From Patescibacteria group bacterium (lineage in GTDB: Bacteria; Patescibacteriota; Minisyncoccia; RBG-13-40-8-A), in the NCBI GenBank assembly GCA_018829905.1, contig JAHJST010000022.1, forward strand, positions 1 to 39,560: a DNA stretch of 39,560 nucleotides. Reading direction: 5' to 3'. Positions within the stretch are counted from its first letter, which is position 1, and each line of letters begins with the position of its first letter. Below the pieces are notes generated by a model. That model was not told where the DNA came from. It did no database searches and saw only the letters and a list, made by a program, of their open reading frames with translations. This document shows, one piece after another, positions 26,109 to 39,281 of this stretch. The position numbers and the translations under genes were made by a program.

Positions 26109-27139
26109 AAATAGCTATTATACATGATTATTTAGTTTGTTTTGGTGGAGCTGAAAAAACTTTTAAGACCTTGACTGAGATTTTTCCTCAAGCCAAGGTT
26201 TTTACTTTATTCTATGATAAAGAAATTAAAAATGAATTTTTTCCTAATAAAGAAATTAAAACTTCTTTTCTGCAGAAATTTCCTTTTAAGAAAAAGTATA
26301 AATGGTTGTTACCATTTTTACCAATAGCAGTTGAGTCTTTAGATTTTAGAGATTTTGATTTAGTAATTTCTTCTTGTTTTTCTTTTTCAAAAGGAATAAT
26401 TACTCGCGTAAATACAAAACATATTTGTTATTGTTATTCTCCTACAAGATATTTGTGGGATCAAAATCTTTTCAAGTCTATTCTTCATTTTTTTAGAATA
26501 TGGGATAGACATGCTTCTGAAAGAGTAGATGAATTTATTGCTATATCTAAAACAGTTCAAAAAAGAATAAAGAAATATTATAAAAAAGAATCTATTGTAA
26601 TTTATCCTCCTGTAGAAATTCCTAGATATAAATTTAATTATTCTGATAAAGAGTTTTTTTTAATTGTTTCTAGGTTAAAAAAATATAAGAGGATTGATTT
26701 AGCTGTTGAAGCTTTTAATAAATTAGGCTTGGATTTAAAAATAATTGGTTCTGGTCCAGAATTTAAAAAATTAAAGAAAAAAGCTAAAAAAAATATTGAG
26801 TTTCTTGGATCACAACCTGATAATATTGTTAAAGAATATTATGCTAAATGTTCAGGATTTATTTTTCCTTCAGAAGATGATTTTGGCATTGCTCCAGTAG
26901 AAGCAATGAGCTATGGTAAACCAGTTTTAGCTTTTAGAAAAGGAGGGGCCTTAGAAACAATAATAGAAGGAAAAACAGGAGAGTTTTTTGATTTTCAAAA
27001 TACAGCTGTTTTAGCTGATGGAATAAGAAGAATAAGAGAAAAAAAATATGATCCTAAGTTTATTATGAATCATGCTAAGAAGTTTAATAGAGAAAGATTT
27101 GAAAGAGAAATAAAGAAAGTTATTGAAAAAAACATATAA
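26105..27139 (+). CDS. Glycosyltransferase family 4
   Basis: 344 residues with GT-B fold. It opens IAIIHDYLVCFGGAEKTFKT, the donor-side glycine loop. The second half shows FFLIVSRLKKYKRIDLAVEAF and the EX7E motif as EDDFGIAPVEAMSYGKP (about 260-276). It is likely to transfer a sugar to a lipid-linked or surface glycan on the inner face of the membrane. Its start overlaps the stop of mreB1 by four bases, which suggests translational coupling and a link between envelope glycan synthesis and the cytoskeleton. Confidence 0.9.
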   Translation: MKIAIIHDYLVCFGGAEKTFKTLTEIFPQAKVFTLFYDKEIKNEFFPNKEIKTSFLQKFPFKKKYKWLLPFLPIAVESLDFRDFDLVISSCFSFSKGIITRVNTKHICYCYSPTRYLWDQNLFKSILHFFRIWDRHASERVDEFIAISKTVQKRIKKYYKKESIVIYPPVEIPRYKFNYSDKEFFLIVSRLKKYKRIDLAVEAFNKLGLDLKIIGSGPEFKKLKKKAKKNIEFLGSQPDNIVKEYYAKCSGFIFPSEDDFGIAPVEAMSYGKPVLAFRKGGALETIIEGKTGEFFDFQNTAVLADGIRRIREKKYDPKFIMNHAKKFNRERFEREIKKVIEKNI

Positions 27140-27172
27140 GTATGATAATTTTAAATTAGGAGGTATTGTACA

Positions 27173-27577
27173 TTGAACAATAAAAAAACAGGAAATCCAA
27201 TCAAGAATTTGATAATTAGGCCAGAGTGTAAAAGAAATGAATTTAAAGATCCGACAACGAACAGAACGGACTTAGAACTCATTAGACAATTTGGTCTAGC
27301 CATCAATGCTGTGCAAGAGTTATTCTGGAGGATGGGCGTGGTTGGGTCGTGGATTCTTACAGACAATAATTTTATTATCCCCGGAGAAATCGCTAACCTA
27401 CCGACAGAAGAGATTTATATCTCGGTTGATGAATACGCTAACCGTGCCGATGTGGTTAATTTAAAAAAGGCTGTTGAAGGAGAGAAGATTTCAAAGGATT
27501 TTGCACCACATTTTCATATTGCTAGAACTGCTCGAATTTGGTGGAGTCAAAAAGAAAAAGCCTTCTTTTTATTTTGA
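27173..27577 (+). CDS. Orphan soluble protein with strong Shine-Dalgarno, unknown function
   Basis: 134 residues starting at TTG 27173; AGGAGG is nine bases upstream and no ATG is available. No membrane segment. It has a basic N-terminus, FWRMGVVGSWILTDNN in the centre, an acidic EEIYISVDEYANRAD stretch and a C-terminal HFHIARTARIWWSQK with two His and two Trp. Monocistronic, with a terminator at 27584. Family unknown. Confidence 0.75.
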   Translation: MNNKKTGNPIKNLIIRPECKRNEFKDPTTNRTDLELIRQFGLAINAVQELFWRMGVVGSWILTDNNFIIPGEIANLPTEEIYISVDEYANRADVVNLKKAVEGEKISKDFAPHFHIARTARIWWSQKEKAFFLF

Positions 27578-27583
27578 TTAATG

Positions 27584-27622
27584 TGCTCAACGTTAGAATT
27601 TTAAATCTGGCGTTGAGCATTT
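27584..27622 (+). terminator. Rho-independent terminator
   Basis: TGCTCAACG and CGTTGAGCA form a perfect nine-base stem around an 18-base loop, followed by TTTC. Confidence 0.82.
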
Positions 27623-27658
27623 CTTGTTCTTAAATAAACAATATGATAAACTTTAAAT

Positions 27659-28351
27659 ATGAATCAGAATATTTTAGATTTCTTTAAAAAGGCAATTGAG
27701 TTTAATAATTTAGCTCATGCATATTTATTTTACGGTCCTCGTGGGTCTGGCAAAAAAGACACAGCATTTTGGCTATCAGAATATTTAAAAGTTTCTCCTT
27801 TTGATATTTTATACGTTGTTCCAGAACAAGACAAAAAAGATATTTCAATTAATCAAATTAGACAAGTAAAAAGACATTTAACATTATCTTCTGATTCATA
27901 TAGATTTGTAATTATAGATAATGCTGATTTAATGAATATTGAATCTTCTAATGCGTTATTAAAAACATTAGAAGAACCACAAGAAAAAACTGTTTTAATT
28001 TTAATAACTACCACACCAGATCTTCTTCCAAAAACTATTTTATCTAGATTACAAGATGTTAAATTTAAAGATATTCCTTTGAGTAAAATGAGTTTTAATA
28101 AAAAATATGTTGATATTTTAAAAGAATCAACTAATGATATTTTTAAATTTATTGAGTCTTTTATAAAAGAAGATTTAGATATATTTTCTTTATTAGATTC
28201 TTGGTTGTTTTACTTTAGAGATCTAATGTTAAAAGATAAAAAATATTTACAAAACATTAAGGAAATTCAAAAAACTAAAGATTTAATTTCTTCTTCTAAT
28301 GTTAATAAAAGATTAGCTTTAGAAAATTTAATTTTATGTATAAAGAACTAA
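27659..28351 (+). CDS. holB: DNA polymerase III delta-prime-like clamp-loader subunit
   Basis: 230 residues, a short AAA+ protein. LAHAYLFYGPRGSGKKD holds the P-loop, VIIDNADLMNIESSNALLKT the Walker B region and clamp-loader signature, and TILSRLQDV the arginine-finger-containing SRC-like motif (no Cys). Length and the missing zinc-binding cysteines separate it from DnaX. A TATGAT at 27642-27647 would give a start about five bases before the ATG. Its end overlaps frr by 16 bases, a compact arrangement. Confidence 0.85.
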   Translation: MNQNILDFFKKAIEFNNLAHAYLFYGPRGSGKKDTAFWLSEYLKVSPFDILYVVPEQDKKDISINQIRQVKRHLTLSSDSYRFVIIDNADLMNIESSNALLKTLEEPQEKTVLILITTTPDLLPKTILSRLQDVKFKDIPLSKMSFNKKYVDILKESTNDIFKFIESFIKEDLDIFSLLDSWLFYFRDLMLKDKKYLQNIKEIQKTKDLISSSNVNKRLALENLILCIKN

Positions 28352-28890
28352 TAAACAATTTAAAACCAGAATTAGAAAAAACAATTACGTTTTTAAAAGG
28401 TGAGTTTATGAAAATTAAAACTAGCAGAGCAACACCTGCTATGATTGAAGATATTGTTGTTAATGTTTATTCACAATTATTACCAATTAAACAATTAGGA
28501 AATATTAATGTTCCTCAACCAAGAGTTATTACTGTTCAACCATGGGATAATAGCGTAATAACACAAATAGAAAAAGCAATAAGAGACAATTCTTCTTTTT
28601 CTCCAGTTGTTGATGGAGAAATGATTAGAATAAATATTCCTGCATTAAATGAAGAGCAAAGAAAAGAATATGTAAAAATAGTTGCTGATAAAGCAGAAGA
28701 AGCAAGAATTTCTATTCGTTTACAAAGAGAAACTCTTTGGAAAAAAATTCAAGAAATGGAAAAATCAGGAGAATTAACAGAAGATGATAAATTTAGGGGC
28801 AAAGATGAACTTCAGAAATTAATTGATGAATATAATAAAAAGATAGATGAGATGAAGAAAAACAAAGAAACAGATATTATGACAGTATAA
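28336..28890 (+). CDS. frr: Ribosome recycling factor
   Basis: 184 residues, full length. It releases ribosomes from mRNA after termination, together with EF-G. The tRNA-like helical body is recognisable from KTSRATPAMIEDIVVNVY (near residue 31), PLKQ-like LPIKQLGNI, VTVQPWDNSVI and the C-terminal KDELQKLIDEYNKKIDEM. The start lies inside the end of holB. After its stop is a hairpin that serves as terminator for the opposite-strand small gene. Confidence 0.97.
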   Translation: MYKELINNLKPELEKTITFLKGEFMKIKTSRATPAMIEDIVVNVYSQLLPIKQLGNINVPQPRVITVQPWDNSVITQIEKAIRDNSSFSPVVDGEMIRINIPALNEEQRKEYVKIVADKAEEARISIRLQRETLWKKIQEMEKSGELTEDDKFRGKDELQKLIDEYNKKIDEMKKNKETDIMTV

Positions 28891-28912
28891 AAAGGGCCCA
28901 AATCATGGGCCC
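28889..28912 (-). terminator. Terminator of the minus-strand small gene
   Basis: Read on the minus strand, GGGCCC-atgattt-GGGCCC is followed by TTTTTA. The plus strand lacks the T-run, so it works for the minus-strand gene at 28918. Confidence 0.8.
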
Positions 28913-28917
28913 CCAGC

Positions 28918-29064
28918 TTATAGAAGAAATGAGGAAAAAAATAGAATAGCCATAATAATAAAAATCTTTTTAATTCTTCTTTCTTTTTCAATTGGTGTTT
29001 TTAAAAATTTAACAGCAACTATAAGGAACAAAATTCCTAAAATTATTGTTATTATCGTTTCCAT
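28918..29064 (-). CDS. 48-residue membrane protein, strong Shine-Dalgarno
   Basis: Read on the minus strand, AAGGAGG lies six bases before ATG 29064. The frame has 48 codons: a hydrophobic helix (IITIILGILFLIVAVKF), a charged turn TPIEKERRIKK, and a second helix ending in FFSSFLL. The minus-strand promoter at 29084-29112 and a terminator at 28889 make it a complete unit in 230 bases. It lies between frr and rseP on the opposite strand. No family is recognised. Confidence 0.72.
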   Translation of the reverse strand: METIITIILGILFLIVAVKFLKTPIEKERRIKKIFIIMAILFFSSFLL

Positions 29065-29083
29065 TTTAAGCCTCCTTAATTTA

Positions 29084-29112
29084 ATTATACACCATAAATA
29101 TGATTCTTACAA
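29084..29112 (-). promoter_or_regulatory. Promoter of the minus-strand small gene
   Basis: TTGTAA, 17 bases, TATAAT on the minus strand. The -35 lies inside the first codons of rseP, so the two genes share their control region. Confidence 0.7.
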
Positions 29113-30170
29113 TAATAGTTTTTATCTTAATATTAGGCATTTTAATTTTTGCTCATGAATTGGGCCATTTTATTACTGCTAAAAAATTTGGAATGAAAGT
29201 AGAAGAATTTGGTTTTGGTTATCCACCAAAACTATTTTCTTTTAAAAAAGGAGATACTATTTATTCTTTAAATTTATTTCCCATAGGTGGTTTTGTTAGA
29301 ATCCACGGAGAATTAAATGAGAAAAAAAGATCTAAAAGCAAAAAGGCTTTTTATAACAAACCAGCATGGAAAAGAGCTATTGTTCTTGTTGCTGGTGTAT
29401 TTTGTAATCTTTTAATAGCTGCAATTTTTTTATCTATTGTTCATATGATTGGTATTCCAAGTATTGTTGAAGAGGGCAAGAATTATAAAAATATACAGAT
29501 TCAGGTTGTTGAAGTTGCTAAAGATTCTCCAGCTAAAGATGCTGGAATAAAAATAGGGGATACAATAAAATCTCTTAATAATCAAGAAATAAAAGAATTA
29601 GAAGATGTTCAATCATTTGTTGCTATGAATATTGGGCAAGAAGTAAATGTTCAAATTAAAAGAGGAAAGGAAATAATTGATAAAAAAGTATTATTAAGAA
29701 TTTCTCATCCTGAAGGAGAGGGTATAATGGGAATAGCAATGGCTAAAACTGATTTAATTTCTTATCCTTGGTATGAGGCAATTGCAAGGGGATTTGAAAC
29801 AACTGGTAGATTGTTTATTACATTTATTAAAATGTTCTATTTGTTAATTAAGAATTTAATAATATCTGGAAAATTAATTGCAGATATAGCTGGTCCAGTA
29901 GGAATAGCTAATTTAACTGCTCAAATGGTTGATTTAGGTTTTGTATATGTTTTACAATTTGCAGCTATTTTATCTATAAATTTAGTTATTTTAAACCTTA
30001 TTCCCATTCCTGCGCTAGATGGTGGTAGGTTATTGCTACTTTTTATAGAAAAGCTTAAAGGGAAGCCAATTAAGGCTAAAACAGAGCAATTAGCTAATGG
30101 TATTAGTTTTGCTCTCTTGATTTTATTAATGATAGTGATAACATTAAGAGACGTTGTTAATTTATTTTAA
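29100..30170 (+). CDS. rseP: RIP metalloprotease RseP (site-2 protease)
   Basis: 356 residues. Intramembrane zinc protease that cuts anti-sigma factors or signal-peptide remnants. The zinc site FAHELGHFITAKKFG begins in the first helix (about residue 19). A single PDZ domain occupies residues 115-200 (SPAKDAGIKIGDTIKSLN), and the third metal ligand lies in NLIPIPALDGGRL (about 302). It heads a run with proS two bases downstream. No Shine-Dalgarno site. Confidence 0.95.
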   Translation: MILTIIVFILILGILIFAHELGHFITAKKFGMKVEEFGFGYPPKLFSFKKGDTIYSLNLFPIGGFVRIHGELNEKKRSKSKKAFYNKPAWKRAIVLVAGVFCNLLIAAIFLSIVHMIGIPSIVEEGKNYKNIQIQVVEVAKDSPAKDAGIKIGDTIKSLNNQEIKELEDVQSFVAMNIGQEVNVQIKRGKEIIDKKVLLRISHPEGEGIMGIAMAKTDLISYPWYEAIARGFETTGRLFITFIKMFYLLIKNLIISGKLIADIAGPVGIANLTAQMVDLGFVYVLQFAAILSINLVILNLIPIPALDGGRLLLLFIEKLKGKPIKAKTEQLANGISFALLILLMIVITLRDVVNLF

Positions 30171-33402: not shown

Positions 33403-33448
33403 TTAAAATGTTTAAACCAAAAACTGAAAAAATTAAAAAACTAGCCAA

Positions 33449-33517
33449 AAGGACTCCCAAAGGAGCCCTTAAGCTATAGAATTTTGATCATTTCTGATCA
33501 ATTCTATTATAGCTTTT
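33449..33517 (+). terminator. Two hairpins between mreC and mreD
   Basis: First, AAGG-a-CTCC-caaa-GGAG-c-CCTT (33449-33470). Second, AGCTATAGAATT-GATCA pairs with TGATCAATTCTATTATAGCT (about 33472-33512), followed by five T. The second looks like a true terminator, so mreD would need its own promoter; TATATT at 33541 fits. A 26-codon basic frame overlaps the mreC stop but is not convincing. Confidence 0.7.
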
Positions 33518-33550
33518 TAAAAATTAGTTTGTCAATAGCTTATATTAAAA

Positions 33551-34015: not shown

Positions 34016-34030
34016 TTATGTGGCCCTTTA
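33994..34030. terminator. Convergent terminator between mreD and the minus-strand small gene
   Basis: GGCCA...ATAATCA pairs with TGATTAT...TGGCC, flanked by AAAAA on the left and a TTTA on the right, so it can serve both strands. It contains the mreD stop codon. Confidence 0.75.
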
Positions 34031-34031
34031 T

Positions 34032-34190
34032 TCATGTCTCTTTTATAAATTTTTCGGGATTTTTTAATATATGTATGATAAACATGATAAATAACCAATA
34101 TCCAATTACGATAGTACCCAAAAAATAAATCCCAACACAAAGAACAATAAGAGATATTCCTATAAAAAGAAAAGAAGTTCTTTTTTTCAT
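34032..34190 (-). CDS. 52-residue membrane protein, strong Shine-Dalgarno
   Basis: On the minus strand GGAGG lies five bases before ATG 34190. The frame has 52 codons with a basic start (MKKRTSF), two hydrophobic helices (FIGISLIVLCVGIYFLG and IGYWLFIMFIIHIL) and a charged tail NPEKFIKET. Its promoter TTGACA-17-TAATAT lies at 34218-34246, overlapping the PBP2 start, and a terminator follows it at 34030. The same layout as the gene at 28918. No family recognised. Confidence 0.72.
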   Translation of the reverse strand: MKKRTSFLFIGISLIVLCVGIYFLGTIVIGYWLFIMFIIHILKNPEKFIKET

Positions 34191-34217
34191 CTTATCCTCC
34201 ATTTGTGAGATAATCTA

Positions 34218-34246
34218 ATATTAGCATATTAATTAATTTATGTCAA
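34218..34246 (-). promoter_or_regulatory. Promoter of the minus-strand small gene, overlapping the PBP2 start
   Basis: Minus strand TTGACA (34246-34241), 17 bases, TAATAT (34223-34218). The -35 covers codons 1-3 of the PBP2 gene. Confidence 0.75.
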
Positions 34247-38118: not shown

Positions 38119-38856
38119 ATGTTAGATTTCAGAGATTCGTTTATTAAGTCTACAAAAGGATTTGGAAGAAGATTTCTTGCTTTCTTGTTTTCTTTTTCAA
38201 TCATTGGTATTGCTATAATAGCAATGATTGTTGTGCCATTAATGAGTACTATAGAAATGCCAACAATTGAGGTTTATAGTGCCTTTCTTGCACCTCCTCC
38301 ACCTCCTCCACCGCCCCCACCTCCTCCTGCTAAAAAAAGAGAAACGGAAAGAAAAAGAACCAGGATTAAGCCGGTTCAAGCCAAGTCAAGCATTGAGCCA
38401 GGACAACTTGTTGCTCCAGTAGAAATACCAGAAGAAATTTCAGATGAGGAGCTTATGGATATTGGAATTGAGGGTGGAATCGAAGGTGGCGTAGAAGGTG
38501 GCGTTGTTGGTGGCGTACTTGGTGGCGTTGTTGGTGGTATACTTGGTGGTGTTGTTGGCGAAATAGAAGCACCTATAAGGGCTATTGGCGAGATTAAGCC
38601 ACCTAGGTTAATTAAGCGAGTAGAACCACTTTATCCAGAGATTGCAAGACAAGCAAGAGTAGAGGGAGTAGTTATCATTGAAGCTACAACAGATATGTAT
38701 GGTAGAGTTCAAACAGTAAAGGTTCTTCGCTCAATTCCATTGTTAGATCAGGTTGCGATTGATGCTGTTCGTCAGTGGGTGTATGAGCCAATGGTTATTA
38801 ACGGGAGACCAAGAGGCGTTGTTTTCACGGTTACTGTGAGATTTAAACTAAAATAA
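38119..38856 (+). CDS. TonB-like energy transducer with poly-Pro and Gly-Val repeats
   Basis: 245 residues, strong GGAGG six bases before the ATG. Short basic N-terminus, one membrane helix (residues 21-41), a run of twelve prolines after SAFLAP (about 58-69), a Lys/Arg stretch, and then a linker of GGV/GGI repeats (about 117-147). The TonB C-terminal domain starts at IKRVEPLYPEIARQARVEG and ends with VVFTVTVRFKLK. TonB passes proton-motive energy to outer-membrane receptors. No exbB, exbD or receptor gene is nearby. Proline codons and base use differ from the AT-rich neighbours, suggesting transfer from a diderm. Confidence 0.9.
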   Translation: MLDFRDSFIKSTKGFGRRFLAFLFSFSIIGIAIIAMIVVPLMSTIEMPTIEVYSAFLAPPPPPPPPPPPPAKKRETERKRTRIKPVQAKSSIEPGQLVAPVEIPEEISDEELMDIGIEGGIEGGVEGGVVGGVLGGVVGGILGGVVGEIEAPIRAIGEIKPPRLIKRVEPLYPEIARQARVEGVVIIEATTDMYGRVQTVKVLRSIPLLDQVAIDAVRQWVYEPMVINGRPRGVVFTVTVRFKLK

Positions 38857-39041: not shown

Positions 39042-39281
39042 ATGTCTATGAAAGATGAAAGAAGTAAAAAGCTTTTGATTATTAATGGTATCGGAATTGG
39101 TGCGTTTTTGATCGGATACGTGTTTTCCGGCATAAGCGAAATCATTAGCTTTTTGGGCTATGGTTTTTTTGCTGCAATTCTTGCTTTGGACTTGCTCATT
39201 TTAATTTGTGTCGTGTGTGTCGCGATCGCGTTTTTTGTGAATGTGATGTTTAAACGCATCTTTCGCGACAAATCTACATGA
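39042..39281 (+). CDS. Small membrane protein, unknown function
   Basis: 79 residues (77 if ATG 39048 is used; AAAGGAGAGG is nearer to the first). Charged N-terminus MSMKDERSKK, two hydrophobic helices (LLIINGIGIGAFLIGYVF and a longer one around AAILALDLLILICVVCVAIAFF), and a basic tail FKRIFRDK. Strong promoter, strong ribosome site and private terminator make another self-contained unit. No family recognised. Confidence 0.75.
   Translation: MSMKDERSKKLLIINGIGIGAFLIGYVFSGISEIISFLGYGFFAAILALDLLILICVVCVAIAFFVNVMFKRIFRDKST

Follow-up and report, generated by a model that had tools for sequence, protein, structure and literature searches.

The window, the whole 39,560-nucleotide stretch of DNA analysed here, belongs to a genome (G000) of ~641 kb that is 96% complete, and contains frr, the gene for ribosome recycling factor (28336-28890, plus strand; Pfam RRF, 5.5e-50), followed by a gene for an rseP-type M50 site-2 protease with a PDZ domain (29100-30170, plus strand; Pfam Peptidase_M50, 3.5e-58). 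Between the two lies a 209-bp interval (28891-29099) that, together with the first codons of rseP, carries a complete set of expression signals on the minus strand. In particular, a sigma-70-type promoter, TTGTAA-17-TATAAT (29084-29112; 10/12 match), has its -35 element TTGTAA (29112-29107) within rseP codons 3-5 and, after a 17-nt spacer, its -10 element TATAAT at 29089-29084; a Shine-Dalgarno (SD) sequence, AAGGAGG (29071-29077), is positioned 6 nt upstream of an ATG at 29064; a 48-codon open reading frame (ORF), METIITIILGILFLIVAVKFLKTPIEKERRIKKIFIIMAILFFSSFLL (28918-29064), extends from this ATG to a TAA at 28918; and an intrinsic terminator hairpin of 9 pairs, GGGGGCCC..GGGCCC (28892-28914), is followed by a T-run that continues into the frr stop codon. 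An earlier, sequence-only reading had described these elements in this order, as a unit that opposes both flanking genes and has its promoter inside the first rseP codons, and all of them are present as described.

The promoter of this mini-gene is the joint best site on both strands in a 4-kb scan. In this A+T-rich DNA, promoter-like sites overall are no more frequent than chance predicts (20 found versus 22.8 expected), so the promoter is no proof by itself. The terminator folds well, with -18.4 kcal/mol for a 51-nt segment (shuffle z -2.9). The predicted transcript starts at about 29077, with a short leader (~13 nt) whose first bases are the SD sequence, leads away from rseP, and stops at the frr stop codon. 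Because it covers neither the frr nor the rseP coding region, the earlier suggestion that expression of the mini-gene may interfere with the protease is unsupported. The base composition of the ORF does not look foreign (G+C of 31/147, or 21%, for the ORF, 27% for the interval, and 25.5% for the genome). A search for terminal repeats or an insertion signature at the interval ends found none, an Rfam search of the mini-gene region returned nothing, and a search for further DNA copies of the mini-gene returned only short A+T-rich matches.

Signal combination and predicted product

Across the whole ~641-kb genome, a strong SD sequence precedes 62 ATG-initiated ORFs of ≥30 aa; 23 of these ORFs have a terminator, and 10 have both a terminator and a promoter matching at least 10/12 positions. 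First-order shuffled genomes contain, on average, 4.0 SD-led ORFs, with 0 having a terminator and 0 having both signals. Because the ordered combination of promoter, SD sequence, ORF, and terminator is absent from the shuffles, the combination exceeds chance. Codon statistics are weakly compatible with coding and are not decisive: the ORF ranks at the 11th percentile among gene fragments and outscores 86% of spurious ORFs. We conclude that the frr-rseP mini-gene is a real feature and is likely a real gene.

The strong SD core is rare in the genome, being present at 4.5% of genes of at least 200 aa (longest start) and at 2.1% of random ATGs. A search of the assembly did not locate the anti-SD end of the 16S gene, and the 3' portion of the G000 16S gene that carries it was likewise not found in the sequence retrieved; SD use is therefore deduced from the statistics. 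The 16S rRNA gene match on contig C12 (~26603-29098; L172, L115) covers ~2.5 kb against a model of 1.5 kb, and the sequence diverges from 16S directly after TTGTAC, as though split by inserts.

The 48-aa product is predicted to be a two-helix membrane hairpin. Specifically, hydropathy analysis gives two hydrophobic stretches, at approximately residues 3-21 and 34-48, in agreement with the two-helix membrane frame proposed earlier, and between them a Lys/Arg-rich, positively charged loop that is probably cytoplasmic. No credible homologue was found in 384 genomes of the class, in 380 genomes of the phylum (the two sets overlap), in all 7 genomes of the order, or in Pfam, NCBIfam, and PDB, and no relative was found among viral contigs, phage records, and PHROGs. 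Among the genomes searched, the frame is present in G000 only, and the protein is an ORFan. Weak matches (best E value 9e-4 in the class and 0.003 in the phylum) are partial, low-complexity membrane alignments, several of which sit inside larger ORFs or run across stops, and were rejected. The product is most likely a small membrane modulator or a selfish or defence-type accessory peptide, both being putative assignments.

The frr-rseP junction in related genomes

We compared the frr-rseP junction of G000 with those of four genomes of the same family (G001, G002, G004, and G005) and one of the same order (G006); the genome collection used holds no same-genus partner of G000, and G003 was left out because its contig stops at rseP. 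In the five relatives, the two genes range from an ATGA overlap to ~25 bp apart. The sequence-only reading had proposed a search for the frame between frr and rseP in related genomes; there, the frame and ~205 bp of the interval are absent, and no second carrier was found. In view of the tight spacing in the relatives, the ~205 bp in G000 is best read as a lineage-specific insertion, and gain by insertion, which would be the simplest reading, is preferred to repeated loss. The -35 hexamer is also present in rseP of G001, which is without the insert, and the codons are conserved; thus the unit appears to have borrowed host sequence as its -35 element. A scan of genome contigs with rseP returned matches from distant bacteria only.

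Two other junctions in the window are longer than their counterparts in G002 and contain no SD-led ORF: 33403-33550 (148 bp versus -4) and 34016-34239 (224 bp versus 64). The rseP match in G004 (C50:5985-7067; L006) contains one internal TAA.

We consider it probable that the mini-gene is an independently expressed, moron-like orphan gene inserted in reverse at the frr-rseP junction. Under this reading, a single orphan gene would have arrived with its own -10 element, SD sequence, and terminator, and would have entered the tight junction, facing the opposite way, after the split from the sequenced relatives. It would be transcribed independently, starting near 29077 and ending in the T-run at the frr stop codon, and SD pairing would lead to translation into the 48-aa membrane hairpin. 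Plus-strand frr-rseP transcription would probably read through the hairpin, since it lacks a U-run when read in the plus-strand direction. Because the predicted transcript is confined to the insert, it would not be expected to act directly as antisense to either frr or rseP; convergent transcription may nonetheless exert a slight, putative effect on frr-rseP.

A class of self-contained orphan units

For a genome-wide analysis, we compared two genomes, G000 and G002, using mechanical gene calls (the longest ORFs of ≥80 aa that do not overlap, plus shorter ones accepted by SD sequence) and pattern matches for terminators and promoters; only at the frr-rseP site were several genomes used to judge whether the change was a gain or a loss. 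Large genes in G000 have strong SD sites at near-background frequency. SD sequences and terminators co-occur, with terminators at 18 of 41 SD genes versus 15 of 529 others (p=2e-14). A homologue in G002 is present for 3 of the 18 genes having both signals versus 375 of the remaining 552 (p=1.6e-5), and the mirror test, starting from G002 genes, gives homologues for 1 of 13 versus 397 of 593 (p=2e-5). Genes that join a strong SD sequence with an intrinsic terminator are rare in G000 and are mostly without a G002 homologue.

G000 and G002 have 228 neighbouring gene pairs in common; 174 of these junctions are tight (<80 bp) in G002, and G000 has ≥120 bp of additional sequence at 22 of the 174. 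Of these 22 enlarged junctions, 7, that of the mini-gene included, contain an SD-led ORF of ≥30 aa, whereas 200 draws of random genome segments of equal lengths gave 0.54 on average (maximum 3) and shuffled inserts gave 0.02. The other 15 enlarged junctions are without an SD-led ORF, indicating that some extra stretches are not such units. The six further ORFs are located at L096 8207-8374 and L097 12422-12772, which both face against the operon, and at L098 17225-17548, L107 9340-9564, L107 13699-13845, and L115 12041-12424, and some of the six have a promoter and a terminator. One sibling unit in G000, which faces in reverse, encodes a 55-aa membrane protein and has a TTGACA promoter and a hairpin terminator, and G002 has its own example of such a unit (L141 7924-8268). 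None of ten unit proteins scores above cut-off against Pfam; the nearest match is ribbon-helix-helix for L107 9340-9564 (19.1 of 20.5 bits), which also matches a PHROG of unknown function. Judging from these comparisons, the mini-gene appears to be one of several self-contained orphan units scattered over a small genome. Literature searches, with the terms tried, found no paper on such units in Patescibacteria.

Near the end of the window, a plus-strand ORF at 39042-39281 encodes a hydrophobic 79-aa product and has an AAAGGAG SD sequence and a strong hairpin terminator, a layout like that of the mini-gene. A 245-aa plus-strand ORF at 38119-38856 also has an SD sequence and a terminator and is without a G002 homologue; its product has a hydrophobic N-terminal stretch and then a proline run, giving it a TonB-like look.

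We tentatively suggest, as a possibility that is itself doubtful, that in these reduced-genome bacteria strong SD sequences and intrinsic terminators belong mainly to a mobile pool of moron-like orphan units, whose members enter core operons singly. If this is so, translation and termination signals alone would mark the accessory genome, and the frr-rseP mini-gene would be among the smallest members of the accessory pool. Short single-copy frames of this type are usually passed over in annotation. Orphans with an SD sequence and a terminator, in a genome where conserved genes mostly have neither, offer a simple sequence test for recent gains in ultra-small bacteria, and the tight operons concerned provide a set for studying how a lone gene can be acquired while host expression stays intact. 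The mini-gene is of modest interest by itself and gains interest from belonging to a class that can be recognised.

Alternative readings and known systems

The orientation of the unit against the operon, and the overlap of its -35 element with rseP codons, would also fit a small regulatory RNA or antisense unit that has an incidental frame and that tunes frr-rseP through convergent transcription or promoter occupancy. We regard this as unlikely: the SD sequence is perfect and at ideal spacing, the ORF fills the space up to the terminator, Rfam gives no match, the predicted transcript runs over neither flanking coding region, and sibling units have longer SD-led frames. Less likely again is that the unit encodes a type I toxin-like, or other selfish or defence, small hydrophobic peptide. 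Type I toxin peptides are very small, hydrophobic, and orphan-like; their expression inhibits growth, and the opposite strand has a separate promoter for an antisense RNA. The mini-protein resembles them in size, hydrophobicity, and orphan status, and is encoded by a predicted independent expression unit, but it has a layout of two helices and a long charged loop, not one helix, and matches no family. On the plus strand, the promoter scan gave only sites of 9/12, a level expected by chance.

Least likely of the three is a non-functional stretch, either a chance intergenic frame or the remains of a lost gene. The weak codon score, the chance-level frequency of promoter matches alone, and the enlarged junctions without an SD-led ORF (15/22) are consistent with such a stretch, but the combination of SD sequence and terminator is absent from shuffled genomes and the same architecture recurs as a class. 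An inserted, independently expressed orphan gene is the reading that we prefer.

Among known proteins, SecG (PF03840) is likewise a small two-helix membrane protein, and the second helix of the mini-protein has a chance-level score to it (E 0.87). However, the mini-protein reaches 10.2 bits versus a cut-off of 29.2, and the weak score was discounted because the true SecG is encoded on another contig (C26:37363-37566; 54.5 bits); identity with SecG was rejected on both grounds. Among known genetic units, phage morons, or units of "more DNA", comprise a single coding region flanked by a promoter and a terminator, are inserted between genes that are adjacent in relatives, and usually, although not obligatorily, have a distinct base composition (PMC4378225). 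The mini-gene is similarly a single coding region with, as judged from sequence signals, its own promoter and terminator, is located between two genes that lie next to each other in relatives, and is without a recognisable recombination signature. It differs in being located in a cellular core operon, flanked by frr and rseP, and not in a phage or prophage, in having a base composition like that of its surroundings, and in having no phage homologue. Because the mini-gene departs from morons in two of their features, phage location and distinct composition, we call it moron-like and do not file it as a moron.
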